From Candidatus Adiutrix sp. (GTDB lineage: Bacteria; Desulfobacterota; Desulfarculia; Adiutricales; Adiutricaceae), in the NCBI GenBank assembly GCA_031261565.1, contig JAISJK010000053.1:1-37574 (forward strand): a stretch of DNA of 37,574 nucleotides, read 5' to 3'. The position numbers and the translations under genes are program-made. The notes below the pieces were generated by a model. It had not been told where the DNA came from. It did not search any database and was given only the letters and a program-made list of their open reading frames with translations. This document shows, in pieces, positions 4,782 to 24,600 of this stretch (position 1 is the stretch's first letter; every line of letters begins with the position of its first letter).

Positions 4782-4799
4782 CCGGGGCCGGAGTCGAAC
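4782..4799. repeat. Distal attachment site (tRNA-Leu 3'-end copy)
   Basis: These 18 bases are identical to 15586-15603 and correspond to the T-arm and part of the acceptor stem of tRNA-Leu. The likeness extends through the CCA end (4776-4781) except that one G of the acceptor stem is missing. The sequence then diverges completely at 4800 and there is no anticodon arm, so it is a recombination footprint and not a tRNA gene. Confidence 0.85.
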
Positions 4800-4849
4800 T
4801 TTCTTATAATGTATTGTAATTTGTAAATAAAATTTATTGGCTATTCGTC

Positions 4850-4868
4850 ATACCCCAGGGGATACCCC
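4850..4868. promoter_or_regulatory. Putative integrase arm-type sites, left end
   Basis: Two direct ATACCCC heptamers begin at 4850 and 4862, a 12-base pitch, about 50 bases inside the left attachment site. The right end carries TTACCCC twice with the same 12-base pitch (15446, 15458) plus an inverted GGGGTAT. Matching short repeats at both ends fit integrase N-terminal-domain (arm) binding sites. Function is inferred from position and symmetry. Confidence 0.5.
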
Positions 4869-5034
4869 TATTCCGGGCCGCTACCTAAAATTGATGATTA
4901 TGGAAACTTGAGGGCAAGCATACCACAAGGGGAGAGACAGGGCAACCCCCGCCCCGGCACCCCGGCACCCGCCAGAAAAGCAAAGGGCCAGACGATCGCC
5001 GCCCGGCCCCTGCTGGTGGTCTATGTTGCGCCGG

Positions 5035-5241
5035 TCAGGTGGCGTCCGTCTCCCCGATCGCCCTGGCCACTCTAGCCAGGTCAGCGAATACCCGCCCCAT
5101 AGCCGGCGGCATCGGCCTGGCCTTCAAGGGTAAAAACCCGGGTTTCCCCTTGTGGGTCAGCTCCTCAATGCCGGGCTGGTCGGCCATCCAGCGGCACCTT
5201 TCAGCGGCCGGGCGGCGATCGTCAAGCCATAGGTCTCTCAT
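5035..5241 (-). CDS. Small hypothetical protein, left operon gene 4
   Basis: A 68-residue protein with no family I recognise. It is mostly charged (MRDLWLDDRRPAAERCRW at the N-terminus) and has no membrane segment. Its ATG overlaps the stop of the upstream gene (ATGA at 5238-5241), typical of translational coupling. It is the last gene of a four-gene minus-strand run that starts near 6014. It contains one copy of the element-specific motif at 5146-5155. Confidence 0.55.
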   Translation of the reverse strand: MRDLWLDDRRPAAERCRWMADQPGIEELTHKGKPGFLPLKARPMPPAMGRVFADLARVARAIGETDAT

Positions 5242-5474
5242 TTGGCCACCCCCATTTCAGCTTTGATTATTTCGTGCTCTCTCCGTCTGCGGTCTGTATC
5301 CCATTCATCAAAAGATACACCGTCCAAAGATACATCGTCAATTGATCGGCCGGCCATGATCTTAAAAATATCCTCGAAATAAAGCGCCTCGTGAGGGTTC
5401 ACTTTGGCCTTGCCTTGGCCGGCCGTTTGGTCTACACTCTCTTTAGCCTTCATGGCTTGCTCCTCGATTCTCAT
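5238..5474 (-). CDS. Small hypothetical protein, left operon gene 3
   Basis: An acidic, probably cytosolic protein of up to 78 residues, with a short DDVSLDGVSFDEWDTD stretch and a basic RRRRE patch after it. I do not recognise it. The ATG eight codons in (5453) has GAGGAG six bases upstream and is the likelier start, giving 71 residues. Its end overlaps the next gene by four bases. Its job cannot be read from the sequence; neighbours suggest a regulatory or accessory role in the element. Confidence 0.55.
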   Translation of the reverse strand: MRIEEQAMKAKESVDQTAGQGKAKVNPHEALYFEDIFKIMAGRSIDDVSLDGVSFDEWDTDRRRREHEIIKAEMGVAK

Positions 5475-5531
5475 GTTGGTTGTGAAGGTGAGGCCCTGTC
5501 TGGTGGTGGTTTCACCATGATGGGGCCGCTT

Positions 5532-5792
5532 TTATTCGCCATTAAGCAGGCGGTCAATTTCCGCTTTCTTTATTCGCCATTCCCTGCCAATTTTGGCCGC
5601 TCGAATCTTGCCTTCCTTTAGCCACTTCAAAACAGTTGAGCGATTCACCTTTAAAAACTCTGCGGCCTCATCCACTGTCAGGGGCCGCTCTGCTCTCTCC
5701 TCATCCGTCAATGCCGCCATCCTGCTTCCTCCTTTCCGGCTTTCATGTTTCAGCCATGCCAGCCTAATTTTTTCGTCTTCGCTTAACGCCAT
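5532..5792 (-). CDS. Excisionase/HTH_17-type DNA-binding protein
   Basis: The 86-residue protein carries an excisionase-type winged helix: PLTVDEAAEFLKVNRSTV, then KWLKEGKIRAAKIGREWRI and KKAEIDRLL. This is the MerR-like helix-turn-helix fold of Xis and AlpA proteins. Two starts are plausible. The ATG at 5792 abuts the stop of the upstream gene (TGA-ATG). The ATG at 5720 has AGGAGG eight bases upstream and begins closer to the conserved domain. It lies in the left operon near the distal attachment site and is a candidate recombination directionality factor or operon regulator. Which of the element's three HTH proteins is the excisionase cannot be told from sequence. Confidence 0.8.
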   Translation of the reverse strand: MALSEDEKIRLAWLKHESRKGGSRMAALTDEERAERPLTVDEAAEFLKVNRSTVLKWLKEGKIRAAKIGREWRIKKAEIDRLLNGE

Positions 5793-6014
5793 TCAGTCAC
5801 CTACCTTGTCAACTACTTCAACACCGTCCTGATTCAGGTGGCAAATAATGCGGCCATCGTCCACCAGGTTCCAGAAAACAGAGGCGGCCCGGTGATCCAC
5901 AATGCGTCTCTTCCGGGCGAATCCGGCAATAACATCAAGGCAAGCCCGGCCTACGAAGGTGGTCGCAAATTTTAACATCAAGGTGAGGTCTGTAGGTTTT
6001 GTTTTGGTTCTCAT
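5793..6014 (-). CDS. Small hypothetical protein, left operon gene 1
   Basis: A 73-residue basic protein (MRTKTKPTDLTLMLKF at the N-terminus) without a domain I recognise. It is the first gene after the strong promoter at 6043-6071 and has a GAGAGGG ribosome site. It ends directly at the ATG of the excisionase-like gene. Conserved-looking features are limited to KRRIVDHRAASVFW and an acidic C-terminus. Position at the head of the operon suggests an element regulator or early protein; this is inference only. Confidence 0.55.
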   Translation of the reverse strand: MRTKTKPTDLTLMLKFATTFVGRACLDVIAGFARKRRIVDHRAASVFWNLVDDGRIICHLNQDGVEVVDKVGD

Positions 6015-6042
6015 TTGACGCCCTCTCTCTATCTATGACCCT

Positions 6043-6071
6043 ATATTAACAGCACTATCAATCGTTGTCAA
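6043..6071 (-). promoter_or_regulatory. Sigma70-type promoter of the left operon, with flanking repeats
   Basis: On the minus strand TTGACA (6066-6071) and TAATAT (6043-6048) are separated by exactly 17 bases, close to consensus, about 30 bases before the 6014 start codon. The octamer CACTATCA occurs at 6053-6060, inside the spacer, and again at 6083-6090, just upstream of the -35 box, 30 bases (about three helical turns) apart. These could be operators for one of the HTH proteins. Confidence 0.7.
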
Positions 6072-6206
6072 CACTTAATTTACACTATCACTCTATAAAT
6101 ACTTTATTGCAACTCTATACTGTCCGATAAGTGCCATTATGTAAACCTGGCCACTTTATTGCGAATGGCTTTATTGTCGTAATATCACTATGTTATACCA
6201 GTATAG

Positions 6207-6236
6207 CCGCCGGGACAATAATTATCGGCCCGGCGG
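6207..6236 (-). terminator. GC-rich hairpin downstream of ssb
   Basis: CCGCCGGG (6207-6214) and CCCGGCGG (6229-6236) form a perfect 8-base stem with a 14-base loop, about 35 bases after the ssb stop on the minus strand. No clear T tract follows, so termination by this hairpin is uncertain. Confidence 0.35.
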
Positions 6237-6269
6237 GGCGGTTATCGGTTGCCAGTCGTCAATAATTTG

Positions 6270-6737
6270 TCAGGGAGCCGGAGGGGAGGTAGGCCGGCCA
6301 CAAGGGGAGAGACAGGCCCCGGCCAACGGTAAAGTAATTCTTGACAGTTCGCCGCCCGTATTGACAAACGCCACCGGCGGCTCACTCGGCTTGGGCTGGC
6401 CACCGTTTCCCCCCTTGCCGGTTCCACCTCCCAGGAGGGTCAGGGCACTGGCGATGATCTCCGTTATCCAACGGTCAACCCCGGCCTTGTCCGTCCACTT
6501 GCGGTATTGGATCCGGCCCTCAATGCAGACCTGGCGATCTTTGGCCAGATATTTTATAGCCACCTCGGCCAGCTTGCCGAAGATCAACACGGCATGATAT
6601 TCCGTCCGCTCCTCACCATTCCACTTGTCCGCAGTGGCCAGGGAAAGCCGGCAATAGTCGGCCCCGGCCTGGCTCTGTCTAATGTCCAAATCTTTGGCCA
6701 CCTTGCCGATTAAAATAGCCTTGTTCATAGACGCCAT
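6270..6737 (-). CDS. ssb: Single-stranded DNA-binding protein
   Basis: A 155-residue protein with a bacterial SSB OB fold: MNKAILIGKVAKDLDIRQ, then YCRLSLATADKW, TEYHAVLIFGKLAEVAIKYL and GRIQYRKWTD. It should coat single-stranded DNA during element replication and RecT-mediated annealing. The start at 6737 is chosen because AGGGG lies about nine bases upstream; a further upstream in-frame start would add non-family residues. A Gly/Pro-rich linker follows the OB fold, but the acidic aromatic tip (DDIPF-like) that docks partner proteins is absent. The tail instead runs into GACLSPCGRPTSPPAP, encoded partly by the element repeat at 6298-6316. It follows recT in the same direction. Confidence 0.9.
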   Translation of the reverse strand: MASMNKAILIGKVAKDLDIRQSQAGADYCRLSLATADKWNGEERTEYHAVLIFGKLAEVAIKYLAKDRQVCIEGRIQYRKWTDKAGVDRWITEIIASALTLLGGGTGKGGNGGQPKPSEPPVAFVNTGGELSRITLPLAGACLSPCGRPTSPPAP

Positions 6738-6803
6738 ATTGTTTTCCCCTTTCTCTTTCATGGGTAATGGCCCCACTTCCGGCGGGAGCCGGGCCGCAAG
6801 GGG

Positions 6804-7676
6804 TTAAAGCTTATTTAGCCGGGCGGCCGCTTTCCGGCCCTGGGCTTCCGTCAGTTCCCCGGGGTCACCGGTCTCAAACTTTTCAGCCAGCTCCGGCGGC
6901 AGGTGGCCGGGCGTCCCCAGGCGGGTCAGTTCCACCTCAATAGCTTGAAGCGTGGCCGGAGATATGGCGGCCGCCTCCTCTTCGGCCACCGGTTGGGCCT
7001 CAATAACCCGCCCCTGTATCTCTCCCGTGGTAATGGTGGCCGCCCCGGCGCTCTCATAAACCCCACCGGGGCCGGGCCGCATATCCAGCATTTCCTCAGC
7101 CGTATGCAACCCCATGGCAATCTCCGGCGCATAGGCCCTCACCAGCCAGGCGGCCGCCCGGTACATCAACATCTGTTTGGGCATGGTCTGCCATTTAGAC
7201 CCCGTCCGCTGAAACCAGCCCTCTTTTTTGGCTATGGCAATGGTCACCGGAGACCCTTCAAGGGTATCATTGGTGGCCTTTTCCACTGCCCAGGCCTGGC
7301 AACCATAGTCGTCTTGCCCCTCAGTCCCCACCCACTTGTAGTGGATGCTGGAGAAGCGGCCGCACATGTTGAAGGAGGCTATCAGGAATTGAGAAGACCA
7401 ACCGGGATTGCCGTTGATGATATGTAGATTTTGCATGGCCATCAAGGGGTCAGCTCCCAGGCGCTTGGCCATATTCAGGGCTATCAGGCAGTTGGCCGGG
7501 TTGCCCTGATAATGCTTGGGAACCAGGGTTGATTGACTAAACATCGTCCCCACCCTCATGGCCAGGGAGAAGGAAGCCCCGGAATAAAAGCCCAGGTCAG
7601 TGGCATCGTCTCCCGGCTTGACCGGCGGGGCGGCGTTGTGTTTCAGTTCGGTAAGGCTGGTAGTGGCAACAGACAT
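6804..7676 (-). CDS. RecT-family single-strand annealing protein
   Basis: A 290-residue protein matching phage RecT: the core has NCLIALNMAKRLGADPLMAMQ, an INGNPGWSSQFLIA block, the KKEGW segment and, near residue 165, QMLMYRAAAWLVRAYAPEIA followed by GLHTAEEM. RecT proteins bind single-stranded DNA and anneal homologous strands, here likely for element replication or exchange with other phage DNA. AAGGAG sits nine bases before the ATG. It begins four bases after the Cas4/RecB-like nuclease gene ends and is followed by ssb, a standard exonuclease-annealase-SSB arrangement. The C-terminal 80 residues are variable, as usual for this family. Confidence 0.93.
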   Translation of the reverse strand: MSVATTSLTELKHNAAPPVKPGDDATDLGFYSGASFSLAMRVGTMFSQSTLVPKHYQGNPANCLIALNMAKRLGADPLMAMQNLHIINGNPGWSSQFLIASFNMCGRFSSIHYKWVGTEGQDDYGCQAWAVEKATNDTLEGSPVTIAIAKKEGWFQRTGSKWQTMPKQMLMYRAAAWLVRAYAPEIAMGLHTAEEMLDMRPGPGGVYESAGAATITTGEIQGRVIEAQPVAEEEAAAISPATLQAIEVELTRLGTPGHLPPELAEKFETGDPGELTEAQGRKAAARLNKL

Positions 7677-7680
7677 TTTC

Positions 7681-8478
7681 TCATCTCCTTGATTTACAAT
7701 TGTTGTAGATTGGGCAGTAACGCGAATGGCACATCATAGACCGGGGGTTGCCGAAAAAAGCCCCGGAGTTAATCAGCTTGGCGGCCATTTCCAAAACGCC
7801 GGGCACATCATCGGAGCCGACCAGGGCCGCCCTGGCCCCCTCTATCCGGCCTATACCGGCCCGCTGGCCCTTTGGGGTTTTCCCGGTTTGCAGGCCGATG
7901 ATCTTGGCCGGGGCGCTCATCGGCTGGCCAGTGGCCGCCTCGGCCAGAATTTCATACACCCCTATCTGGAAAGCATGGCCGGCGGTTTTTACCCTGCCGT
8001 CTGTGCCCACCACCTGGCCGCCGGTTTTAATGTCGGCAATGCCCAGGCCGTCATCCGTCCGTTGGATTCGGTCAACCGTGCCGGTCAGGGTAATCCCCAG
8101 GTCAGCAATGGTCAGGGCTTCACAGGTGGCCTCCACCGCCACATAATCCGCCGCCGGCGCAATCTGAGCGCAGTAAAGACCATGCAGACCCAGGGCGATC
8201 TTTTCAGCCGTAGCCGGGTTTAAATCGTCCTCCCAAACCACATCCTCCCCCGGCCTGGCCAGCACATCCACCGCCGCCCCGGCCGCCTCGTCTGCGGTCA
8301 GGCCTTCACCCTTGAGGCGGGATTCATCATAGACCGCCGTTGATTTATGCACAGCCGTGCCCAGCATGGCCTTGCCGCTTGACGGCATCCGCTTCCCCTG
8401 AATATGCACAGCTTCCCACCGGGCCGGGCAGTCAAACAGCCCCGGCAGAGAACTGGCCCGTATAGTCGTTTTAATCAT
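7681..8478 (-). CDS. PD-(D/E)XK nuclease, Cas4/RecB-like with Cys cluster
   Basis: A 265-residue nuclease of the PD-(D/E)XK superfamily. It shows an LFDCP N-terminal cysteine, a GTAVHKSTAVY motif (the conserved His), GTVDRI and IADIKTG (the Asp and D-x-K catalytic residues), a QIGVYEILA helix, and three clustered cysteines near the end (CHSRYCPIYNNC). One N-terminal plus three C-terminal cysteines suggest the [4Fe-4S] cluster of Cas4/AddB-type exonucleases. It probably supplies 5'-end resection for the adjacent RecT, as RecE or lambda exonuclease does elsewhere. AAGGAGG lies seven bases before the start. No CRISPR array or cas gene is near, so a CRISPR role is unlikely. Confidence 0.87.
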   Translation of the reverse strand: MIKTTIRASSLPGLFDCPARWEAVHIQGKRMPSSGKAMLGTAVHKSTAVYDESRLKGEGLTADEAAGAAVDVLARPGEDVVWEDDLNPATAEKIALGLHGLYCAQIAPAADYVAVEATCEALTIADLGITLTGTVDRIQRTDDGLGIADIKTGGQVVGTDGRVKTAGHAFQIGVYEILAEAATGQPMSAPAKIIGLQTGKTPKGQRAGIGRIEGARAALVGSDDVPGVLEMAAKLINSGAFFGNPRSMMCHSRYCPIYNNCKSRR

Positions 8479-8587
8479 CTAATTGCCTCCTTGTCATTTC
8501 CTACATTTTGGTAGGAAATTAAATCTATCCCCAAAATTATTAGGTTTTCTTAGTCTCAGCCCCACAAGGGGGAATCCCCCGGCGGCC

Positions 8588-8896
8588 CTATTCATCGTCC
8601 ACCCCGGCCCATTTCAGGCCATCTTGGAAGGGCTGGCTCACCTTGCCGCAGGGATGCCCATAGCTAGGGTATATCTCCATGGCCCGGCGGGCGAAAGCAG
8701 ACCCAGGGTTGGCCGGCTGGTTGCGGTTGCGGCCGGCGGCCAGGAAGTTGGCCTCGGTCTCAGGATCATCAAAATATCGCCCGGCCTCCTGTTCAAGCTC
8801 CTCCTGCCGGTCAAGCCAGCATTGGCGGTCAAGCTCCTTTTCATAGAGGGGGTCAATCCTGGCGTTATAGTCATCCCTCATTGCGGCGAAGTTCAT
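8588..8896 (-). CDS. Small hypothetical protein in the recombination operon
   Basis: A 102-residue, strongly charged protein (Asp/Glu/Arg-rich, DPLYEKELDRQ and RQEELEQEAGRYF) likely to be helical in its first half. I recognise no domain. Its ATG overlaps the stop of the ERCC4 nuclease gene (ATGA, 8893-8896), which indicates coupled translation and supports it being real. A partner or modulator of the nuclease is possible but unproven. About 110 bases separate it from the next gene, including one element motif at 8562-8571. Confidence 0.6.
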   Translation of the reverse strand: MNFAAMRDDYNARIDPLYEKELDRQCWLDRQEELEQEAGRYFDDPETEANFLAAGRNRNQPANPGSAFARRAMEIYPSYGHPCGKVSQPFQDGLKWAGVDDE

Positions 8897-9369
8897 AGGG
8901 CCACCTCCTGGCCGTGAGCCTTGATGATTGCCTTATAGCGGGCCTCGGCCTCCCGGAGATACTTCGACAGTAGCCAGTAGCAGGAATACTCAGCCGCCCG
9001 CCTATTCCCAGCCCAGATAAACGGCACCCGGTGACGAACCTGAAAGGCCAGGATGCTTTGGGCGGCCGCATGCGGGTTTAGGTTGCTGTGGTATTGCTTG
9101 GCCGTCAGCTCCTCAAAGCCGTTTTCGATAATCACCGCGAAGTAGTCCAGCCCCCGCCCCCTGGCCAGCTCCCGCTCAAACCTATCCCGGTTGGAGCCGG
9201 TGAGGCACCCCACCAAATCAGCCAGGCTCTTGCGCTCCAGGGCCACCCGATCCTCCAGGCCCACAAGGGAGTAATCCCCGGTGGCCAGCGTCCCCACCAC
9301 CACCTCCACAGCCTCCCGGCCCTCAAAGGTGAAAGGCTTTTGCTCCCGGGTATCAACTATTATCTTCAT
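8893..9369 (-). CDS. ERCC4/XPF-type nuclease domain protein
   Basis: A 158-residue stand-alone ERCC4 nuclease. The signature is clear: IIVDTREQKPF at the N-terminus, LATGDYSL, then VALERKSLADLVGCL (the ERKx3D catalytic core) and later DRFERELARG. This fold cuts branched or flap DNA. Phage and satellite versions usually act in replication or recombination, resolving intermediates. The ribosome site GAGAGG lies upstream of the ATG. The gene overlaps its upstream neighbour by 17 bases and its downstream neighbour by four, so it belongs to the operon that continues to the Cas4-like nuclease, recT and ssb. There is no helix-hairpin-helix domain, typical of small phage versions. Confidence 0.88.
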   Translation of the reverse strand: MKIIVDTREQKPFTFEGREAVEVVVGTLATGDYSLVGLEDRVALERKSLADLVGCLTGSNRDRFERELARGRGLDYFAVIIENGFEELTAKQYHSNLNPHAAAQSILAFQVRHRVPFIWAGNRRAAEYSCYWLLSKYLREAEARYKAIIKAHGQEVAL

Positions 9370-9571
9370 GCTTTCCTCTCACCAATATCCGGCCACATAC
9401 GCCGCCGCCGCAGATACTTTTAGGGTCAGACCTCATCAGCCGACAGGCCGGTGAATTAAACTTTAGCCTCTGATATTTCCCATCCATGTAATACATACAG
9501 CGGAGACGGCTGGCTTTTTCAGGGGCCACATCCTCCCCCAATGCCTTGTATTCCTTTCTAAATTCAGTCAT
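9353..9571 (-). CDS. Small Cys-containing hypothetical protein
   Basis: A 72-residue basic protein with four cysteines (RLRCMYY, SPACRL and, near the end, SICGGGVCGR), which could form a small metal site although the spacing is not a standard zinc ribbon. It is the first gene after the iteron-like region and overlaps the ERCC4 gene by 17 bases. The ribosome site is weak. No family is recognised. Confidence 0.5.
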   Translation of the reverse strand: MTEFRKEYKALGEDVAPEKASRLRCMYYMDGKYQRLKFNSPACRLMRSDPKSICGGGVCGRILVRGKHEDNS

Positions 9572-9620
9572 CGCCAGCCCCGTCTATCATCAGGATTGCC
9601 ACAAGGGGGAAACCTTGGGC

Positions 9621-9810
9621 GGTGGGTTTGGTGGGTTTGTGGTGGGTTTGCCCGGCCGCAAACCCCCACCCGGAAAGCCAGCACTGTCATACCCTTGAGG
9701 CTTGCGGTGGGTTTGGTGGGTTTCATCTTCTTACCTTACGCGTAGGGAATACTAGAAGTGATTCTAGTACAACGAGAGGAATCACCCCCCTAAAACCCAC
9801 CTAAACCACC
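9621..9810. other. Iteron-like repeat array with hairpin: putative replication origin
   Basis: This gene-free stretch between the helicase gene and the recombination operon carries GGTGGGTTTG at 9621, 9630, 9641 and 9706, and GGTGGGTTTC at 9715. The inverted form AAACCCACC is at 9793-9801 and AAACCACC at 9803-9810. Inside the array are a perfect 8-base inverted repeat TACTAGAA/TTCTAGTA with a 4-base loop (9750-9769) and the palindrome TACGCGTA (9737-9744). Iterons plus a stem-loop beside a primase-helicase pair is the usual look of a satellite or plasmid origin. It could alternatively or also be the operator region for the downstream operon. Confidence 0.6.
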
Positions 9811-9817
9811 AACCCTG

Positions 9818-11428
9818 TCACCCTTCCACTTTCCAAAATTTGATCCCTTGGTAGCGCTTGCTGGATATTTTCAGGCCGTCAACTATCCGGCCCTCGTAAC
9901 TTTTGAGCCACTTCCCCAGGGTTTTAGGTTTCACCCCTTGCGGGGAGTTTATAGCGTTATCAATAGCTTCCTGAAGTTGGGCTGACCCCTGTTTAATGGC
10001 CTCGGCCGCTGTTTTGGATTCATTGCCAAAGCACTCATGCCAGGCCGTCAGCACTTCCCCCAGGCTCTCAGTCACCGGATCAAGCTCGGCCAGGCTATCC
10101 TTGGTCACCAGCGGATCATCCATCCCCAGCCAGACCACCGCCCCGCGAACCAGATCAGACCAGGCCTCGAAGCGTCCGAACTCACTCCACCCTTGTGGCT
10201 TGGGTTTCCCGGCCAGGTGGTAAGCCCGCAGGATGTTTAGCCCGGCGGCCACCAGGCGGCCCCGGTTGGCCGGCACCCATTGCCGCAGGTCAACCTCAAA
10301 AGCCCGTTCCTCTGGATGCTCAACCCCGGCATCCATGGCAATCCTCAAGGCCCTAGTGGTCAGGTCTCCAGCCAGGGTTAGGTTATTCCCCGTGGCCAAA
10401 AATGTTACCAGGTTGGGAATGGTGGATGTTTTTGACTGCCCTAAAATCCGGCCCCCTATTTCCGGGTTGGTTATCCAGTCGCAGAGCTTTCCACTTTTAA
10501 AGGGCCGGTCGATATTGTCGAAACATTGGATCGTCTCCCCGGCCAGGGCCAGACTTAAAACACTCTTGGCCAGCTCCTCAGCGTCAGTCGTGTAGGAAGC
10601 GCTGGCCCAATTATTACGGCCGGCCCCAACAAAGGCGATCAGCCAGGCCAGCAGAGTTTTTCCCGTGGCCATTGTCCTGGCTGTTATCGCGAACATTGGG
10701 ACTACTGATAAGCAGGGCCTGGCGATCACGGTCAACACGGCCGCCACCGCCGCCGCCTTATCAGGATCGTCCACAAAGGGGAAGCCCGCCAACGGCGCTA
10801 AAATGGCCGTCAGGGCCTTTTCAGCGTCTTCCCTTGTCGGCGTATCCAGAACCGGAGAAAACTTGCCCCCGGCCAAAAATAGCCCGGTCTCCGGGTCATG
10901 CCCCGGCCTCTGTAAAATACTTCCATCCGGCCGGATAGTGGGGGCGGTTATCAGGCCCCGTAAAACAGGCAGGCCGCATTTACGGGCCTCGGATAAATAG
11001 GCCCCGGCCGTTTCGCGGTCAAGGCCGCAGGGCTTGAAATCTTTCAATCGCTTGTCAAATTTAGTGAAGGTAACCTTATCAGCCAGGGCGGCCCTCAGCC
11101 CATCCACCGTCAACCCCCTCACCGTGGGCTGGGTCAGCGGCCCCCTAACAATATCAATGGCCGGAACATCAAGCACCACCACCAGCTGGCCCCCCCGCTG
11201 AAAATACCGTCCGTAGCCAGACAGTCGCTCGTCAATGGCTGTATAGGCCTTGTCAAGCTCATCGGCTTTTAGTTGAATCTTGACCTTGACTTGGGGCGGG
11301 GTCTCGTGGTATTCTTCAGATACAACAACCTTTCCCTGAATCTCTTTTAGCCCGGCGGCCGTCCCAGTTGCCGGGCTTGTTTTTGGTTTGGGTTGATACT
11401 TTTTCCGGGTTACAGGTTCAACAGCCAT
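9818..11428 (-). CDS. Replicative helicase-like AAA ATPase of the element
   Basis: A protein of about 536 residues whose centre is a P-loop ATPase: Walker A in FAITARTMATGKTLLAW, Walker B in ETIQCFDNIDRPF, a sensor-like VTFLATGNN and a nearby arginine cluster (TTRALRIAM). The N-terminal 200 residues are less conserved, including the block VDGLRAALADKVTF. The arrangement resembles phage and plasmid replication helicases with a DUF927-like or superfamily 3-type core. ATG at 11428 is preferred over a TTG at 11449 because AAGGA lies six to seven bases before it. It overlaps the primase gene end by 11 bases. Together with the primase and the iteron-like repeats downstream it should drive autonomous replication. 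Confidence 0.8.
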   Translation of the reverse strand: MAVEPVTRKKYQPKPKTSPATGTAAGLKEIQGKVVVSEEYHETPPQVKVKIQLKADELDKAYTAIDERLSGYGRYFQRGGQLVVVLDVPAIDIVRGPLTQPTVRGLTVDGLRAALADKVTFTKFDKRLKDFKPCGLDRETAGAYLSEARKCGLPVLRGLITAPTIRPDGSILQRPGHDPETGLFLAGGKFSPVLDTPTREDAEKALTAILAPLAGFPFVDDPDKAAAVAAVLTVIARPCLSVVPMFAITARTMATGKTLLAWLIAFVGAGRNNWASASYTTDAEELAKSVLSLALAGETIQCFDNIDRPFKSGKLCDWITNPEIGGRILGQSKTSTIPNLVTFLATGNNLTLAGDLTTRALRIAMDAGVEHPEERAFEVDLRQWVPANRGRLVAAGLNILRAYHLAGKPKPQGWSEFGRFEAWSDLVRGAVVWLGMDDPLVTKDSLAELDPVTESLGEVLTAWHECFGNESKTAAEAIKQGSAQLQEAIDNAINSPQGVKPKTLGKWLKSYEGRIVDGLKISSKRYQGIKFWKVEG

Positions 11429-12425
11429 TGCGGTTCCTTTCCAATTCAATCAGGTCAGCCAAGTCAAACTTGGGCGGCCAGTCTTCTTTGATTTCAACAA
11501 ACTCGATATATTCACGATTCTCCGAATATGCGGCCAGGGTCTCGGCTATCCCCTGTATAGCTTTCAGCCCGGTTGGGTCTGCGTCAGGCCAGAGGATAAA
11601 AGGGCCGCAACCGTCCAACATTCGCCAGTCAGACCAATGCCAGGCCCCGCCGCCGCCGTGCCAGGTAACCGGGATACAAAAGCAGTCAACGATTTCAGCC
11701 ACAAGAAAGGGATAGTCAGCGGCCGCTTGATAACATTTTTCGCCCTCGACAATCAACACCGGCCGGGCGTCACCTTCGCGCCGGGCTTGCCAGACCTCGG
11801 CCAGCCCCAACAGCGGGCGGCCCGGGCCAGGGGGGAGCCGCCGATGCCAGCCCACAACGCCGCACAACTCGCCATAGCTTAAGGGCAGTATCAGCTTCCC
11901 CTTGCCGGTCAAGGGGTTGACATGCCAGCGGAGGATATAAAAAGCTGTCTGCCAGTCTGCCGGCCTCTGGTAGTGGCTGGCCAGGTCAGCCTTGCGGCCG
12001 TTGATGATCATGGCTGATTCGGGAGGTTTGCCGGGCGGGATCAGCTGGGTAAATCCCCGGTCAGGCGGGCCAGGCTGGGGAGACTTGGCCCCCACAAGGG
12101 AGAGACCGGGCTGGCTATCTTCCCTTGTGGATCCGCTCCGGGTCTGGCCGCCGGGGTCAAGACCGTATTCATCGCAGAGCCGCCGGGCCGCTTCACCTTG
12201 GCCGCAGTTCCACCTTGTCGCAACCAGGCCGATAATGTCCCGGCCCTTTTCGCCAGTCGCATTGTCGCACCAGGCCCCGTTGGTCATGTTGACGCAAAAG
12301 CTCCGGCCCCGTCCGCCGGTCAGGTCGGCCGCCTGAAATTCACGGCCCGCCCTATGGCCACCCGGTAAAAATGTTGGCCAGTCCAGCCGGGTCAACAGCT
12401 CCCGGTTGATAGCCTTGAAGTCCAT
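11418..12425 (-). CDS. TOPRIM-domain DNA primase of the element
   Basis: A 335-residue primase-like protein. The N-terminal half has the zinc-binding-primase-like block NMTNGAWCDNATGEKGRDII followed by a helix near EAARRLCDEYGL. The C-terminal half has a TOPRIM core: VLIVEGEKCYQAA (catalytic Glu) and FILWPDADPTG (DxD metal site). It should make RNA primers for element replication. Its ATG overlaps the stop of the small AlpA-like gene upstream (TGATG at 12427-12423), and it overlaps the helicase downstream. Its coding sequence includes a perfect 10-base inverted pair of the element motif (12091-12130). Its first bases are duplicated at 12665-12708. Confidence 0.83.
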   Translation of the reverse strand: MDFKAINRELLTRLDWPTFLPGGHRAGREFQAADLTGGRGRSFCVNMTNGAWCDNATGEKGRDIIGLVATRWNCGQGEAARRLCDEYGLDPGGQTRSGSTREDSQPGLSLVGAKSPQPGPPDRGFTQLIPPGKPPESAMIINGRKADLASHYQRPADWQTAFYILRWHVNPLTGKGKLILPLSYGELCGVVGWHRRLPPGPGRPLLGLAEVWQARREGDARPVLIVEGEKCYQAAADYPFLVAEIVDCFCIPVTWHGGGGAWHWSDWRMLDGCGPFILWPDADPTGLKAIQGIAETLAAYSENREYIEFVEIKEDWPPKFDLADLIELERNRNGC

Positions 12426-12447
12426 CAGCGTTTAGCCCCGGCGGCCG
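12404..12447. repeat. 44-base direct repeat, copy 1
   Basis: These 44 bases are identical to 12665-12708. They cover the last codons of the AlpA-like gene at 12425-12634 (ending AAGAKR-stop) and the first codons of the primase gene (MDFKAIN). See the finding on duplication. Confidence 0.95.
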
Positions 12448-12634
12448 CTGGCTGTGTTAAGAGGGCCTCTAAATCAGCGATGCGCCAGACGGTCGTTTTG
12501 TTGCCGATTTTAATTCCGGCTGGCACCTTTCCAGTCTGCACCCAATGCCACCAGGTGGATTCCCCAATCCCGAAAAACTCAGCACACCCCCGCGCCCGGA
12601 GCGCCCCCTTGATTTTTGAATAATCAATAGCCAT
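12425..12634 (-). CDS. AlpA-like HTH protein 2
   Basis: A 69-residue AlpA/MerR-fold DNA-binding protein: CAEFFGIGESTWWHWVQTGK is the helix-turn-helix, followed by the wing (VPAGIKIGNKTTVWRI) and DLEALL. In P4-like elements AlpA proteins activate integrase or excision genes; this one begins the replication run. GGAGG lies six bases upstream. The stop overlaps the primase start by one base (TGATG). Its C-terminal AAGAKR is encoded by the 44-base repeat shared with the next AlpA-like gene. Confidence 0.82.
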   Translation of the reverse strand: MAIDYSKIKGALRARGCAEFFGIGESTWWHWVQTGKVPAGIKIGNKTTVWRIADLEALLTQPAAAGAKR

Positions 12635-12664
12635 TTAAACCTCCAATAACCTAAAACTTATTCT

Positions 12665-12708
12665 GGTTGATAGCCTTGAAGTCCATCAGCGTTTAGCCCC
12701 GGCGGCCG
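12665..12708. repeat. 44-base direct repeat, copy 2
   Basis: An exact copy of 12404-12447. It spans the end of the AlpA-like gene at 12686-12892 and a dead fragment of the primase start (first seven codons), which shows that a gene plus junction was duplicated or inserted by recombination. Confidence 0.95.
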
Positions 12709-12892
12709 GGTCAACCCTTTGTCTCAAAGCCCAAGCTTCCAGGTCGGCCAGGCGATACCGAACACTCCGGCCAAATTTCATGTAGGGCACCCGATGCCGT
12801 CTGGTCACGATATCTTTGGCCAGGAAAATCTCACTCATCTTTAAAAATTCGGCGGCCTCTTTCCGGCTTAAAAAAGTTTCAGCTTGTTCCAT
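12686..12892 (-). CDS. AlpA-like HTH protein 1
   Basis: A 68-residue AlpA/excisionase-type protein: FLSRKEAAEFLKMSEIFL is the helix-turn-helix, RVPYMKFGRSVRYRLADLEAW the wing and following helix. TAGGTGA lies upstream of the ATG. It is the first gene after the AACGTTA-containing promoter region and may regulate it. Its last residues (AGAKR) and the bases that follow are identical to the end of the second AlpA-like gene, but the helix-turn-helix regions differ, so the two probably bind different sites. Confidence 0.82.
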   Translation of the reverse strand: MEQAETFLSRKEAAEFLKMSEIFLAKDIVTRRHRVPYMKFGRSVRYRLADLEAWALRQRVDPAAGAKR

Positions 12893-12943
12893 TGTTCACC
12901 TACCAGTCATAATGTTTTACTGAGTTTCCCTTGTTCTCCTAAT

Positions 12944-12978
12944 AAGATATGGCAAGTATTAACGTTATTTCAACGTTA
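12944..12978 (-). promoter_or_regulatory. Probable promoter and AACGTTA operators of the replication genes
   Basis: On the minus strand TTGAAA (12968-12973) and TATCTT (12944-12949) are 18 bases apart upstream of the first AlpA-like gene. The heptamer AACGTTA sits in the spacer (12961-12967) and again over the -35 box (12972-12978), 11 bases apart. A third copy is at 13045-13051. Placement over the promoter suggests an operator for an element regulator; the -10 match is modest. Confidence 0.4.
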
Positions 12979-13004
12979 GAATCTCAAAAATTGAAAATAA
13001 AAAT

Positions 13005-13031
13005 GCCGGTATATCAATTAGATATACCAGC
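13005..13031 (-). terminator. Rho-independent terminator after the cargo gene
   Basis: An 11-base stem with one mismatch (13005-13015 with 13021-13031, centred on GGTATATC/GATATACC) and a 5-base loop lies about 30 bases after the stop of the 13063-14169 gene. On the minus strand it is followed by CATTTTTATTTT. A second 8-base hairpin (13040-13047 with 13059-13066) overlaps the stop codon. Confidence 0.65.
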
Positions 13032-13062
13032 ATAAAAAAATAATAACGTTAATTTGATGTTA

Positions 13063-14169
13063 TTATTTTCGCAATGGCCGTAAGTTTGGATATTTTTTCA
13101 TCATGTAATCAATATCACCTTGTATTTTTTTTAAGTCATTCGTGAAATTGTTTTTATTGGTGGATGATTCGGCTTTCCTTATTTTAACGTCAATATAAGT
13201 CCTCAGCCTTCTGGGGCGCGCATAGTTTTTGCGTGGGGCGTCTTTCTCGTCCTGCTTTATCGCCTCCTCCCATGCTGCCAGGTCGATCTCAACATTATCC
13301 CCCTGGCCAACTCGCCCATCGGAACTCGGGGCGCTTTCAAGGGGGGAATCCTGGGCGGCCTGTGCAGGGGGGTCTTTGATAAGTAACTTTTCAACCTCGG
13401 CCTTGTCGAACCACATCCTTGCAAGGTAGGTTTTGTATGCTTCTATAATTCCATCATTGGCATACAGGCTTTTTATATCTCGTTCGAACATATCAAAGTT
13501 GAAAAAGAAAAGCTGGCCTTTAATATCTTCACTGTTAAAGGGCTGGCCGTCAATTAAAACACGCCAGAACACCGGCATAATGGTTTTCCAGGCATAGCCA
13601 TAGGTGTCAAAATTTAGGTTGGGATATTCTTCCCTAAAGCCTTCTGCCGCAACAATAGCCTCAAAATTAGGGTCTGTCAGTTCCCTGATTTCCAGATCCA
13701 ACTGGCGGCATTTAATTTCCCAGGCTGATTTTAGCCGTGTTAGCTCATCAAACGAATAATCTTTAAAATAATTATCCTCATTATATGGTGGAATCCATAG
13801 GCCCGGAATATCCTGCCCGTATCCTTTGCCCATTCTCCCCAGCAAGGTGTGGGGGTTTTTCTCTTCCCAGGCGGCCATCAACTGGCCCAAAGCCCACTTT
13901 ATATTAGCCAATTTAAGCCGGATAGGCTTGACCTTTAAAATATCGTCCCAATCCCACCTAACCTCCTCACCGCTTTGGATATGGTCATGGGGGTCAACTC
14001 CCGGCGGGGGATATTCGGGCACCCGTTGTATTTTGCTGAGCTCATAAATAGGCTTTTCAATTTCGGCTATATAAGCGGTCAGTTTTCCGCTATAGCAATG
14101 CTCTCCCAACCCTGCGGCCGACAGGCCGTAATCTTTCATGACTTTTTGGCCGGTAATCCATTCTCTCAT
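13063..14169 (-). CDS. Unknown cargo protein coupled to the integrase
   Basis: A 368-residue soluble protein that I do not recognise. The N-terminus (MREWITGQKVMKDYGLSAAG, then an acidic, aromatic segment) resembles the short HTH-like leader of many uncharacterised element proteins. The middle is rich in aromatic and charged residues (the segments IKGQLFFFNFDMFERDIKSL and FWRVLIDGQPF). A low-complexity linker near residues 270-290 leads to a basic C-terminus (NYARPRRLRTYIDVKIRK). No catalytic motif or membrane segment is evident. Its ATG overlaps the integrase stop (ATGA, 14166-14169), so it is translated with the integrase, and a terminator follows. It is visibly more AT-rich than its neighbours. 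Position suggests an accessory function such as defence or regulation; that is only inference. Confidence 0.7.
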   Translation of the reverse strand: MREWITGQKVMKDYGLSAAGLGEHCYSGKLTAYIAEIEKPIYELSKIQRVPEYPPPGVDPHDHIQSGEEVRWDWDDILKVKPIRLKLANIKWALGQLMAAWEEKNPHTLLGRMGKGYGQDIPGLWIPPYNEDNYFKDYSFDELTRLKSAWEIKCRQLDLEIRELTDPNFEAIVAAEGFREEYPNLNFDTYGYAWKTIMPVFWRVLIDGQPFNSEDIKGQLFFFNFDMFERDIKSLYANDGIIEAYKTYLARMWFDKAEVEKLLIKDPPAQAAQDSPLESAPSSDGRVGQGDNVEIDLAAWEEAIKQDEKDAPRKNYARPRRLRTYIDVKIRKAESSTNKNNFTNDLKKIQGDIDYMMKKYPNLRPLRK

Positions 14170-15467
14170 TTAGCCCCCCTCAGCTCGTCCAAATAGTCGG
14201 CCCACCAAATCATCAACTCCCGGCGCTCCTCCCGGTATTGGGCGTGGTTATAGGCTTCCCTGATAGCGTTCTTTTCAGCGTGGGCCAGTTGGGCCTCAAC
14301 AACATCCGGCCTGAAACCATGCTCATTGGCCAGGGTAGAGAACATGGCTCGGAAGCCGTGGACAGTAATTTGATCTTGGCCGTAGCCCATGCGCCGGATC
14401 GCGTTCAACAGGCCCATATCAGATATACAGCGCGTGGCGCTATGGGGGGAGGGGAACACCAGAGCGCCGTGCCCGGTAAACTCCTTCAGCGCCTCCAAGA
14501 GGGAGACCACTTGCGGGGCCAGGGGGACTAAATGCGGCTTTTTCATTTTCATCCGGCCGGCGGGGACAACCCATTCACCGGCCTCCAGTTTTATTTCCTG
14601 CCACTCAGCCCCGCGTAGCTCACAGCTCCGCAGGAAGACATAGGGCAAAATCTTTAGAGCGAAGACAATGCTTATATCACCGGGGTAATCGTCAATATCC
14701 CGGAGTAGCTGGCCGATCTCCTGGGGGTCTGTTATGGTGGCGTAGTGTTGCGTTTGAACAGAGGGCAGGGCCTCAGACAGACCGGCGGCCACATCATATT
14801 TCACATAGCCGCAGAGGCGGGCGTAGCGACAAACCTGACCGGCTATTTGGGCCAGCCTGTGCGCCGTCTCGATAGCCCCCCGGGCCTCAGCCTTGCGGAT
14901 AGTCGCCAGTATATGCGCCGGCTCAATGGTCGTAAAAGGCATGGCCCCCAGGTCAGGGAGCAACTGGCGTTCAAGGCGGGAAAGTATCGTTTTTTGGTGC
15001 CCCTCGCAAAAGGTAGACCGTTTTTTAGAGAACCACTCGCGGGCCACCGCCTCGAAGGTGTTGGCGGCCTCCCGGGCCTCAGCCTGGGCCACCGCCTTAG
15101 CCTCCTGCTTCACGGCGCTGGGGTCAACCCCGGCGGCCAGCATCTCTTTGGCCTCGTCTCTTTTTTGGCGGGCGGCCTTGAGGGAAACATGGGGGTAAAC
15201 ACCCAGGGCCAGGAGTTTCTCCCGCCCATCAAAGCTGTATTTCAGCCTCCAGAGCTTGGAGCCGGAGGGACAACACAGTATAAACAGCCCCTGGCCGTCA
15301 AACAGCTTGTAGGGGGTATCTTTAGGCTTGGCCGTGGCTATCTGCCGGTCTAACAGGGGGATGATCCGCTTCATAATAGGGCGCTCCGGGGCCGGGCTTA
15401 ACGGTTGGGGGTATGCCATTTTTGCCCCACCCTCAAACCCAAAACTTACCCCATATATTACCCCCAA
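14166..15467 (-). CDS. int: P4-type tyrosine integrase
   Basis: A site-specific recombinase of the P4/CP4-57 class acting at tRNA-Leu. The N-terminus has the family's DUF4102-like arm-binding domain (AKPKDTPYKLFDGQGLFILC, then LGVYPHVSLKAARQKRDEAK). The catalytic half shows the first Arg in FLRSCELRGAEW, the conserved Lys region (MKMKKPHLVPL), HGFRAMFSTLA (H-x-x-R), AQLAHAEKN (second His) and the nucleophilic Tyr in EAYNHAQY. Family proteins start near MKRIIPLLDRQ, so the ATG at 15374 or 15419 is more likely than 15467. It is the gene nearest the intact tRNA and reads away from it. Its stop is coupled to the unknown cargo gene. Confidence 0.93.
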   Translation of the reverse strand: MGVIYGVSFGFEGGAKMAYPQPLSPAPERPIMKRIIPLLDRQIATAKPKDTPYKLFDGQGLFILCCPSGSKLWRLKYSFDGREKLLALGVYPHVSLKAARQKRDEAKEMLAAGVDPSAVKQEAKAVAQAEAREAANTFEAVAREWFSKKRSTFCEGHQKTILSRLERQLLPDLGAMPFTTIEPAHILATIRKAEARGAIETAHRLAQIAGQVCRYARLCGYVKYDVAAGLSEALPSVQTQHYATITDPQEIGQLLRDIDDYPGDISIVFALKILPYVFLRSCELRGAEWQEIKLEAGEWVVPAGRMKMKKPHLVPLAPQVVSLLEALKEFTGHGALVFPSPHSATRCISDMGLLNAIRRMGYGQDQITVHGFRAMFSTLANEHGFRPDVVEAQLAHAEKNAIREAYNHAQYREERRELMIWWADYLDELRGAK

Positions 15468-15478
15468 AGACGGGGTAT
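15446..15478. promoter_or_regulatory. Putative integrase arm-type sites, right end
   Basis: TTACCCC occurs at 15446 and 15458 (12-base pitch, as at the left end) and an inverted GGGGTAT at 15472-15478, around the integrase gene start and within about 110-140 bases of the attachment core. Overlap with the integrase start region would let bound integrase also limit its own expression. Confidence 0.5.
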
Positions 15479-15530
15479 GTCAAATGGTCTTGATTAATCT
15501 TAGCTGGTCTGTCAAATCACATAAAAGCTA

Positions 15531-15563
15531 AGCCCCATAAGGCTTTTTAGACTTTATGGGGCT
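15531..15563 (-). terminator. Hairpin after tRNA-Leu, likely terminator
   Basis: AGCCCCATAA (15531-15540) and TTATGGGGCT (15554-15563) form a perfect 10-base stem with a 13-base loop, starting 17 bases beyond the tRNA CCA end on the minus strand. A TAGCTTTTA stretch follows. It probably ends the arg-dap-tRNA transcript and shields the element. Confidence 0.6.
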
Positions 15564-15579
15564 GTTTGGGATTCATCTT

Positions 15580-15666
15580 TGGTGCCCGGGGCCGGAGTCG
15601 AACCGGCATGACCTTGCGGTCGAGGGATTTTAAGTCCCTTGTGTCTACCAATTTCACCACCCGGGC
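15580..15666 (-). tRNA. tRNA-Leu (anticodon UAA), integration target
   Basis: Read on the minus strand, the 5' acceptor GCCCGGG (15666-15660) pairs with CCCGGGC (15590-15584), followed by discriminator A and an encoded CCA (15582-15580). The D arm has GGTGAAATTGGTAGACAC. The anticodon stem AGGGA/TCCCT encloses the loop CTTAAAA, giving UAA. A variable arm (TCGACCGCAAGGTCA region) of class II length and the T arm with GGTTCGACTCC complete it. It lies 21 bases after the dapF stop in the same direction, so it may be co-transcribed with the biosynthetic operon. The element has reconstituted its 3' end. Confidence 0.95.
15586..15603. repeat. Proximal attachment site inside tRNA-Leu
   Basis: The 18 bases identical to 4782-4799 fall in the tRNA T arm and acceptor stem. 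With the distal copy they define the element's limits; a circular form would join them into one copy. Confidence 0.85.
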
Positions 15667-21635: not shown

Positions 21636-24600
21636 TTATGGTTTCCCGGCCAGGTGACGGGGAGTGACCACTTCCACCCAGTGTTCCCGGTGGTCGTCCA
21701 CCAGAGTTATGAAGCTGGTTTCCAGTTTCTGGCCGTCCAGGGCATAATCAGGGCGGTCATTATCCGGGGCCGAGGGCCTGATGGTCAGGTGATAGACCGT
21801 TTCCCGAAAGCGGTAGTGGATTTTAAACTCATCCCAGCCCGGAGGAACCAGCTGGTGCAGGCTCAAACGGCCGTTTATCAGCGAAATCCCCAAAAGGGAT
21901 TCCATCATAAACCGATACATCCAGGCGGCTGACCCGGTGTACCAGGTCCAGCCTCCCCGGCCGATATGCTGGGCCGCAGCATAGACATCGGCGGCCATGA
22001 CGTAGGGCTCCACCTTATATATCTCAACTCCCCGGGGCGAGGAGGTGTGGTTCACCGGATTTATCAGGTTGAAAATTTCCCAGGCCCGGCTCTGATCCCC
22101 CAGGGCGGCGAAGGCCATACCGGCCCAGATGGCCGCGTGGGTGTATTGGCCGCCGTTTTCGCGCACGCCGGGGACATAACCCTTGATGTAGCCGGGATTG
22201 GGCTCCGAAACATCGAAAGGGGGAGCGAGGAGTTTGACCAACGCGTGATGGCGATCCACCAGGTATTCGTCCAGCGAATCCATAGCCTGGAGGGCTCGCT
22301 CTCTGGCCCCGGCCCCCGAAAGCACCGACCAGCTCTGGGCTAGGGAGTCGATCCGGCCTTCCGAATTGCCGGACGAGCCCAGGGGCGAGCCGTCATCAAA
22401 GTAGGCCCGGAGATACCACTGGCCGTCCCAGCCTGATTTATTCAGATTTAAGCGCAATTTTTCCGATTCAGCCAGGCACTCGGCCGCGAAATTTTCATCG
22501 CCGCGCTCTTGGGCCAGGCGCGAAAATTTGACCAGAACCTCAAACAGGAAAAAGCCGAGCCAGACGCTTTCGCCCCGCCCCTGGCTGCCCACCTGATCCA
22601 GGCCATCGTTCCAGTCGCCGGAGCCCATGAGCGGCAGACCATGGGCGCCGAATTTCAGCCCGTTCCGAATGGCTTTGACGCAGTGTTCATAAAGAGAGCC
22701 GTCCAGACCGGGGCCCGGCAGATCATAGCAGGAATTTTCACCGGCCCGGAGCGGCCGGCCCTCAATAAATTTGACCGCTTCATCCAGCACTCCATCATCG
22801 GCCGTGGCTTCCACATAACGGCAGGTAATCAGGGGCAGCCAGAGATAATCGTCGGAACAATTGGTGCGCACTCCCCGGTTGGTCGGCGGGTGCCACCAGT
22901 GCTGAACATCGCCCTCGCTGAACTGGTGGGCGGCGCACAATAATAGGTGTTCGCGCACCAGGTCCGGCCGGGCGTGAATGAGGGCCGCCACATCCTGCAG
23001 CTGATCGCGAAAGCCAAAGGCGCCTCCTGACTGGTAGGTGGCGCCTCTGGCCCACAGGCGGCCGGCCAGAGTCTGATACAACAGCCAGCCGTTGGCCAGC
23101 AGGTTAAAGGCCTGATCCGGGGTTTCCACATTGACCGCCCCCAGGGTGTGAGCCCAGTGCTGCCAGACTTTGTCCAGGGCCTCCCTGAGAGTTTTCTTAT
23201 TTTTAAAGCGGCGCGCCAAATCCCGGGCCTCGTTCCGGCTCCGGCCCGAGCCAAGTTTGAAGAAAAATTCCCGCTCGGCGCCGGGGGCCAGCTCAAAGAC
23301 GGATTGAAGGGCGGCGCAGGGATCCAGAGCGGTTCCGGCCCGGCCGGAGAGTTTGACCCTGAACATGGCCGCCGGAGAGGCGAGGCTGGCCCCTGAGCCG
23401 ATAAATTCCAGGCGGTCACAAGTAAAGGAGGTTCCCGGCGGGTCAAGGTCAAAAAACGCGACCCGCCCCGGGAAATCTGAATTGTAACCATTGCTGGCCA
23501 GGAGAGCCCCGGTTTCCGGGTCGATTTCACAGCGCACCTGGGGGCTTGTTTTGAATCTCAAATCGCCCAAAACCCACTCGACATAGCCGGAGACTGACAG
23601 GCGGCGGGCCCGGCCGGAAGTGTTGCGCACCTTGATGGCGGTGATTTTTACCGGCGCGTCAATGGCCACATAGATTTGAGCTTCAGAGGATATCCCGTTC
23701 TCGCAATGCTCAAAAATGCTGTAACCAAAGCCGTGTCTGCTGACATAGGGGGCGGTTCCCCGGCAGGGCCAGGGCATGGGCGACCAGAATTGTCCGGTTT
23801 CCTCGTCGCGCAGATAAAGAGCCTCGCCGCTGGAGTCAGTCACCGGGTCATTGTCCCAGGGAGTGAGGCGAAATTCGTGGGCGTTTTCACTGAAAGTGGA
23901 TGAGGATCCGGTTTCGGAAACAATGGCCCCAAAAGACGGATTGGCCAGAATATTCACCCACGGGGCCGGGGTAATCTGGCCGGGGGCGGTGGTGACGACA
24001 TATTCGCGCCCATCCGGGGTAAAGCCGCCCAGGCCGTTCCAAAAGGTCAGATCCAGGCGAGGCTGGGGCGGGGGGGGCAGTTTCTCCGCCTGAGGCGGGC
24101 GCGAGGCGACCAGGGCCGGGGGCCAGTTTTTTTTGACCCTCAGACCCTCGACCTGATCGGCCAGGCTGCCCCGGTCATCGCTGATGATCACTCTGGCTAC
24201 GGCCTGAATCAATATGCGGTCTTCTTCGGCAATCCGGTCTCCGGCTCTCAAAAAAACTCCGCCCGGCCGGTCAATCAGGTTTTCATCGCCCCTGGCCGCG
24301 ATGGAATCCCGGATCTGATCATGAAGAGTCTGGCGGTAGCCGGACTGGTCTTCATTGATGATCACCAGATCCACCGCCAGGCTTTTGCGCCTCCAATATT
24401 CATGGGCCTGCAGCATCTGGCGCACCAGGTCAATATTGGCCTTTTCGCCGATGATGACCAGGACGATGGGCAAATCTCCGGAAATGGCATAACCCCACAG
24501 GCCGGATTGGCCCCGCCGGTTTCGGGCCAGAATGTTTTCCGGCGCCCGGAGTTTTTCCTGGCTATAGATGACCGAAGAGGCCAACTGGTTAAAAAGGTGG

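Follow-up and report, generated by a model that had tools for sequence, protein, structure and literature searches.

A nine-base motif concentrated in a tRNA-Leu-integrated element of Candidatus Adiutrix: scattered candidate binding sites

Genes and boundaries of the element

Candidatus Adiutrix is a lineage described from termite guts. The window analysed here is the whole stretch of 37,574 nucleotides; it forms contig C37 in a genome of 2.24 Mb and 139 contigs. It harbors an integrated element of ~10.8 kb (4782-15603) which is inserted in a tRNA-Leu gene. All assigned genes of the element are located on the minus strand. The features are listed below with the scores of the family matches in brackets.

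4782-4799, left attachment-site repeat of 18 bp, a copy of the tRNA-Leu 3' end, identical to 15586-15603
5532-5792, minus strand, excisionase-family HTH protein (TIGR01764, 1.5e-17), a candidate binder of the motif described below
6270-6776, minus strand, SSB (PF00436, 1.9e-27) without the acidic C-terminal tip, as read from the translation
6804-7676, minus strand, RecT-like annealing protein (phrog_561, 7.6e-77)
7681-8478, minus strand, PD-(D/E)XK exonuclease (PF12705, 3.3e-18)
8893-9369, minus strand, ERCC4-type nuclease (PF02732, 2.8e-13)
9818-11449, minus strand, D5-like primase/helicase (phrog_29234, 1.3e-84; phrog_19930, 4.4e-37)
11418-12425, minus strand, primase-like protein (phrog_239, 4.2e-5; NF005477, 4.5e-15)
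12425-12634, minus strand, small HTH_17/AlpA-like protein (HTH_17, 1.6e-5, just under its cut-off; Phage_AlpA, 1.3e-4)
12686-12892, minus strand, small HTH_17 protein
13063-14169, minus strand, open reading frame of 368 amino acids without a family (AlphaFold model too poor for use, pLDDT 45.6)
14166-15467, minus strand, tyrosine integrase, int (Phage_integrase, 7.7e-18; Arm-DNA-bind_3, 1.3e-24)
15586-15603, right attachment-site repeat, within tRNA-Leu (TAA) at 15580-15666, identical to 4782-4799

Relaxase, terminase and capsid genes were not found among the element proteins searched, and in the search for RNA families only the tRNA scored above threshold. As an integrated element it is satellite-like or plasmid-like. 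Two exact direct repeats were observed in it, one of 44 bp at the 3' ends of the two adjacent HTH_17 genes (12404-12447 and 12665-12708), the other of 20 bp, with abundant GGTGGGTTT, in the interval from the helicase gene to the open reading frame 9353-9571 (9619-9638 and 9704-9723). Outside the element, a cyclic glucan synthase-like protein of 2903 amino acids with GH94 and glucoamylase domains is encoded at 21636-30347.

A 9-mer enriched in the element and its extension

The 9-mer CCACAAGGG occurs nine times in the element, at a density of 0.83 copies per kb. An earlier note on this DNA had listed these nine copies and had found none in the rest of the window; both statements proved right, and most of its positions hold, although the second copy lies at 5147-5155 and not at 5146. 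Its estimate that chance would yield less than one copy was borne out as well, since 0.55 copies were expected in the window and 100 shuffles gave at most three. Extended to 17 bp, the copies are as follows.

4923-4939, plus strand, copy 1 (CCACAAGGGGAGAGACA), exact 9-mer, 20.5 bits with the matrix described below
5139-5155, minus strand, copy 2, in the open reading frame 5035-5241, exact 9-mer and matrix match
6298-6314, plus strand, copy 3, in the ssb reading frame close to its 3' end, exact 9-mer and matrix match
8562-8578, plus strand, copy 4, intergenic, 84 bp 5' of the exonuclease gene, exact 9-mer and matrix match
9261-9277, plus strand, copy 5, within the gene of the ERCC4-type nuclease, at a position aligned free of gaps, exact 9-mer and alignment
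9599-9615, plus strand, copy 6, intergenic, 28 bp 5' of the open reading frame 9353-9571, top matrix score (21.2 bits)
10182-10198, minus strand, copy 7, within the gene of the D5-like helicase, where one codon is inserted compared with the sister element L035, exact 9-mer and alignment
12092-12108, plus strand, copy 8, in the variable linker of the primase-like gene, exact 9-mer and alignment
12114-12130, minus strand, copy 9, inverted partner of copy 8, exact 9-mer and alignment
5122-13351, ten weaker matches above 14 bits with the trained matrix, at 5122 (plus), 6404 (minus), 6794 (plus), 8301 (minus), 9321 (plus), 9927 (minus), 10771 (plus), 10823 (minus), 12204 (minus) and 13335 (plus)

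Background rates were derived from whole-genome pattern counts and from a 612-kb sample of host sequence. The genome (2,237,603 bases) contains 26 copies, 9 of them in the 10.8-kb element and the other 17 spread over the remaining 2.23 Mb; the chromosome thus does not carry the word at a similar density, which, according to the earlier note, would have told against its proposal had it been the case. With about 0.1 exact copies expected in the element, the density there was about 100- to 110-fold that of the host chromosome, and the Poisson probability of at least nine copies was 4.6e-16 when the genome rate was used and 1.6e-13 with that of the host sample. Among all 9-mers of the element CCACAAGGG was the most over-represented one (z = 15.6), followed by the next non-overlapping word with a z of 9.8. 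The motif is genuine, statistically strong and, within this genome, specific to the element.

Copies are found within genes (six of nine) as well as between them (three of nine), as had been observed before. A codon effect was ruled out, again in agreement with the earlier reading, by the reading phase and by synonymous shuffling: the six genic copies cover all three codon phases, and the six observed in coding sequence compare with a mean of 0.27 and a maximum of 3 in 2000 synonymous-codon shuffles of the element. All exact copies are located in the left two thirds of the element. They occur in both orientations (six on the plus, three on the minus strand), with spacings of 30 to 2264 bp and without clustering or regular direct repeats; an iteron array is not supported, and membership in this class fails because of the spacing.

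Several copies are related to one another beyond the core. The identity over 19 bp between the copies at 4923 and 6298 was confirmed (4923-4941 equals 6298-6316). The perfect inverted pair of 10 bases exists also, at corrected coordinates of 12092-12101 and 12121-12130 (its start had been given as 12091), and both reported near matches are present, the one at 6794 as described and the one given as 9934 at 9935. Copy 2 is palindromic with a weaker copy at 5122-5138.

Alignment of the sites revealed that CCACAAGGG, which runs on roughly as RRRAnnC, is the core of a longer, one-sided and degenerate motif of ~17 bp, about CCnCAAGGGRRRAnnCC, beyond which the flanks of the element copies diverge. 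The earlier note had overlooked this extension, as well as the membership of copy 4923 in the promoter-like class described below. Among words containing CAAGGG other than the exact 9-mer, the ..RA pattern followed in 6 of 15 from the element versus 16 of 277 from the host (Fisher P = 2.9e-4). When a matrix was trained on left-hand sites, nine sites above 10 bits were recovered in the right part versus 1.36 expected at the host rate; reverse training yielded nine left-part sites versus 1.02 expected. The weaker sites are moderately supported because the held-out excess was smaller once exact 9-mers were removed (4 versus 1.32 and 5 versus 0.96). A matrix built from the whole element gave 19 sites above 14 bits versus 0.23 expected, but it serves description only because training on the element makes it partly circular, and its weak matches certainly include chance ones.

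The core in host sequences and related elements

Copy 4923 shares the arrangement AATACCACAAGG-N(6-8)-CAGGGCAAC with seven places on the chromosome. Read on the opposite strand, this class consists of TTGCCC, a 16- to 18-bp spacer ending in CCTTGTGG, and TATTCT or a similar hexamer, and by its sequence it resembles a sigma-70-like promoter with an extended -10 region. The core of the host class, TACCACAAGG, is the same as that of the element motif and makes up the spacer and extended -10; only these 9-10 bp are firmly common to host and element sites. The class can also be written as TTGCCKGTTGCCCTG-N-CCCCTTGTGGTATTCT, including a divergent pair between the hemA-like gene and its neighbor. All seven chromosomal members lie 5' of open reading frames in promoter orientation. 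They precede genes for an MFS-type transporter, pyrC-like, hemA-like (with its divergent neighbor), HAD-type phosphatase, NIF3-like and CHASE2-like products; these names were read from the translations, with no family search. The loci are the following.

L018:113-171
L026:441-499
L027:463-569
L032:425-483
L106:18151-18199
L114:3683-3731

When this genome was scored with a model of the class, eight members stood out as strong (E at most 2.5e-6), copy 4923 being one of them by model R1 (E = 1.6e-8). At similar strength, no member was detected in 39 relatives (best 0.003, with 150 candidates scored per genome), and the class was not found at comparable strength in six other genomes of the genus.

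Within the element, only copy 4923 belongs to the host promoter-like class. On the minus strand this copy forms the spacer and extended -10 of the following sequence.

4916-4945, minus strand, promoter-like sequence of the host class (TTGCCC-N17-TATGCT), directed leftwards over the left attachment-site repeat

It lies beyond a terminator-like hairpin at 5011-4983. After circularization of the element it would read towards int, which would be its target in the circular form only; int itself has a promoter-like sequence of good quality at 15483-15455. Promoter boxes are missing at the other eight copies. The three intergenic copies have the orientation of the class relative to the gene that they precede or would read towards.

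In the region of the ssb end (6270-6400), two blocks, one matching at 17 of 19 bp and the other 22 bp long, are shared in the same order with the host sequence C101:6193-6289, an intergenic region beside the pyrC-like gene; in the window these blocks fall within 6298-6380. Judged from this resemblance, the 3' end of ssb looks as if it had been replaced.

A 5974-bp contig (L035) from a genome of the same genus was the only close sister element found. Protein alignments gave identities of 70% for the ERCC4-type nuclease, 57% for the helicase and 50% for the primase. Its 6 kb contain a single copy of CCACAAGGG (position 300); the genes that are collinear with five copies of the window have none. 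More distant primase/helicase relatives (L093-L096, 33-39% identical) have no copy. The idea that the signal is conserved in related elements was thus not upheld, and since L035 lacks the motif in the shared genes there is no conservation evidence for function; this absence, which the earlier note had considered damaging, speaks largely against a conserved function and leaves an element-specific one untouched. At 9261 the ERCC4 proteins of the two elements align without a gap, so that the difference at the motif consists of substitutions only and the motif was not inserted. The copy at 10190 coincides with the one-codon insertion, and the linker that carries the pair at 12092/12122 is not the same in the two elements.

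Scans of viral contigs with helicase and ERCC4 queries led to no confirmed match. In IMG/VR, the extended motif matched 30 contigs once each, which is the chance level, the stretches examined held at most two 9-mers each, and the promoter-like long form had no match. In another genome of the genus (G003) the 9-mer is part of an interspersed repeat with three hairpins, GGGGGGCTTTGCCCCTCCACCCCACAAGGGG(TAAA)CCCCTTGACCCCACCG..TCCTAAGAAGGA.., often together with CCACAAGGGGTAAACCCC; at least 12 copies occur among the loci examined (L197-L202, L204, L205, L211, L216, L040, L041 and L042). In a further one (G002) it lies in a long hairpin. The region C1:64000-95000 of G003 also contains two near-identical stretches 10,006 bp apart near tRNA-Leu(TAA) (L038:1607-1906 and 11613-11912), possibly a tandem element or a duplication at the same tRNA gene; protein similarity between this region and the element of the window was not found.

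Candidate binding sites, rival explanations and known systems

We tentatively prefer to regard the copies as candidate binding sites of a sequence-specific DNA-binding protein, encoded by the element or by the host, a reading which we consider a good possibility though short of probable. Protein binding and its resulting effect are what we infer from the ninefold occurrence against about 0.1 expected copies, the information in the flanks, the held-out excess, the use of all codon phases, the origin of the ERCC4 copy by means other than insertion, the core shared with the host class and the common orientation of the intergenic copies. Against it count that no motif-binding protein was identified, that eight of nine copies are without promoter boxes, that orientation is mixed (6 to 3) and that L035 has no copies in the shared genes. 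Under this proposal, copy 4923 would occupy an operator position in a complete, outward-directed promoter-like sequence at the left end, two copies could act from intergenic gaps before genes in the same orientation, and the six genic copies may be transcription road-blocks, anchoring sites, or decoys that soak up a regulator, in a logic akin to that of stoperators or KorB. A more specific version, which we think improbable, is that the satellite-like element uses its scattered copies of the host-promoter-class core, the majority of them genic, as a sponge or road-block tying its expression to a host regulator, with the full promoter reading through the attachment site and being useful mainly after excision.

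The identity of the copies 4923 and 6298 over 19 bp, the likeness of 4923 and 12092 over about 20 bp with one deletion, and the location of four copies in the ssb tail, the linker or the one-codon insertion would also suit a short dispersed (REP-like) repeat that has spread in the element and also, as a separate event, in Adiutrix chromosomes, such that the core reflects common descent and not binding; a tiny mobile repeat had been among the options of the earlier note. The two blocks that 6298-6380 has in common with the pyrC-side host region, in the same order, and the palindromic sequences with the 9-mer in G003 and G002 point in this direction, too. We nevertheless regard such a repeat as rather unlikely, though a serious rival: the similarity of the flanks ends beyond about 17 bp, the copy in the ERCC4 gene aligns free of gaps to a sister without the motif, and the host promoter-like class was not found at comparable strength in six other genomes of the genus. 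Site folding was ordinary, and a uniform hairpin repeat was rejected as the folding energies of the nine sites did not exceed those of GGG-matched windows. A signal for replication, recombination or packaging (primase loading, an element-specific Chi-like function or helper-phage packaging sites) likewise appears rather unlikely to us, though again a serious rival. The exact copies do share the left two thirds of the element with the genes for primase, helicase, ERCC4-type nuclease, exonuclease, RecT and SSB, and the motif uses both strands and is one-sided like Chi; yet there is no iteron cluster, terminase and relaxase genes were not found, and the homologous primase, helicase and ERCC4 genes of the sister lack the motif. 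A Chi site of the host, which the earlier suggestion of a Chi-like signal might have implied, should be frequent in the chromosome and was ruled out as too rare: the 17 copies in 2.23 Mb are about the number that base composition predicts.

Two further explanations carry little weight. Uptake sequences are dense, occur in both orientations within and between genes and form inverted pairs, all of which applies to the element with its 0.83 copies per kb; a DUS/USS-like sequence carried over from a donor lineage rich in it is nonetheless very improbable, as this density was not approached by any of the 395 genomes sampled from the phylum (highest about 0.08 per kb), which speaks against a sampled relative as the source. 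Copies from the densest sampled genome had no shared extension, and in the high-count genomes G007 and G327 the sampled copies were scattered singles with no extension in common. Chance, composition or local duplication can hardly explain the pattern either: single copies such as that in the ERCC4 gene could be accidental, but probabilities of about 1e-13 to 1e-16 stay very small after correction for ~1e5 words, and the held-out excess argues against accident.

To our knowledge, few mobile elements have scattered non-palindromic recognition sites. Should binding by a protein be confirmed, the preferred reading in terms of binding sites would add to these few a small element that is integrated at a tRNA gene in an uncultured lineage, with a site possibly common to host promoters, and the nine natural sites would be a ready-made test set.

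In its gene content the element resembles P4-like satellites (tRNA integration, tyrosine integrase, AlpA-like HTH protein, primase/helicase, RecT, exonuclease and SSB), but its primase-like and helicase proteins are encoded by separate genes. We are not aware of such a motif in P4, nor do we know of a helper relation for the element. Like REP/BIME repeats the motif is short and multi-copy, with an occasional inverted pair, and the palindromic repeat of G003 has the same core; in contrast to them, its copies have ~17 bp in common, form no uniform hairpin and are genic in six of nine cases. Membership in the REP/MITE class fails because of unit length and hairpin formation. Chi sites of RecBCD/AddAB are short, one-sided and found in and between genes, as is the motif of the element. 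The latter is confined to one element, however, and membership fails for want of enrichment in the host chromosome. The palindromic KorB operators of plasmid RK2 are spread over promoters, intergenic stretches and genes. The sites of the element are distributed in the same way over promoter-like sequence, intergenic gaps and genes, but the motif is non-palindromic and a ParB/KorB protein was not found in the element.

L5-type phages possess more than 20 asymmetric 13-bp sites at promoters and in short intergenic gaps, the orientation of which follows transcription (PMC9283540). The stoperators and operators of cluster A mycobacteriophages such as L5 and TipsytheTRex are matched by the element in that many asymmetric copies are scattered and at least one is found at a promoter or promoter-like sequence (PMC9283540). 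The element differs from them in sequence, in having one promoter-like, two other intergenic and six genic copies, and in an orientation (6 to 3) that is independent of its minus-strand transcription; membership in the stoperator class fails because six of nine sites are genic and orientation is mixed. As to a repressor of the stoperator type (HTH plus stoperator domain), the element shows small HTH_17 proteins only, besides the familyless 368-amino-acid open reading frame with its poor model. Among the systems compared here, the closest parallel to the way in which the motif would work is offered by the L5-type phages with their operators and stoperators.
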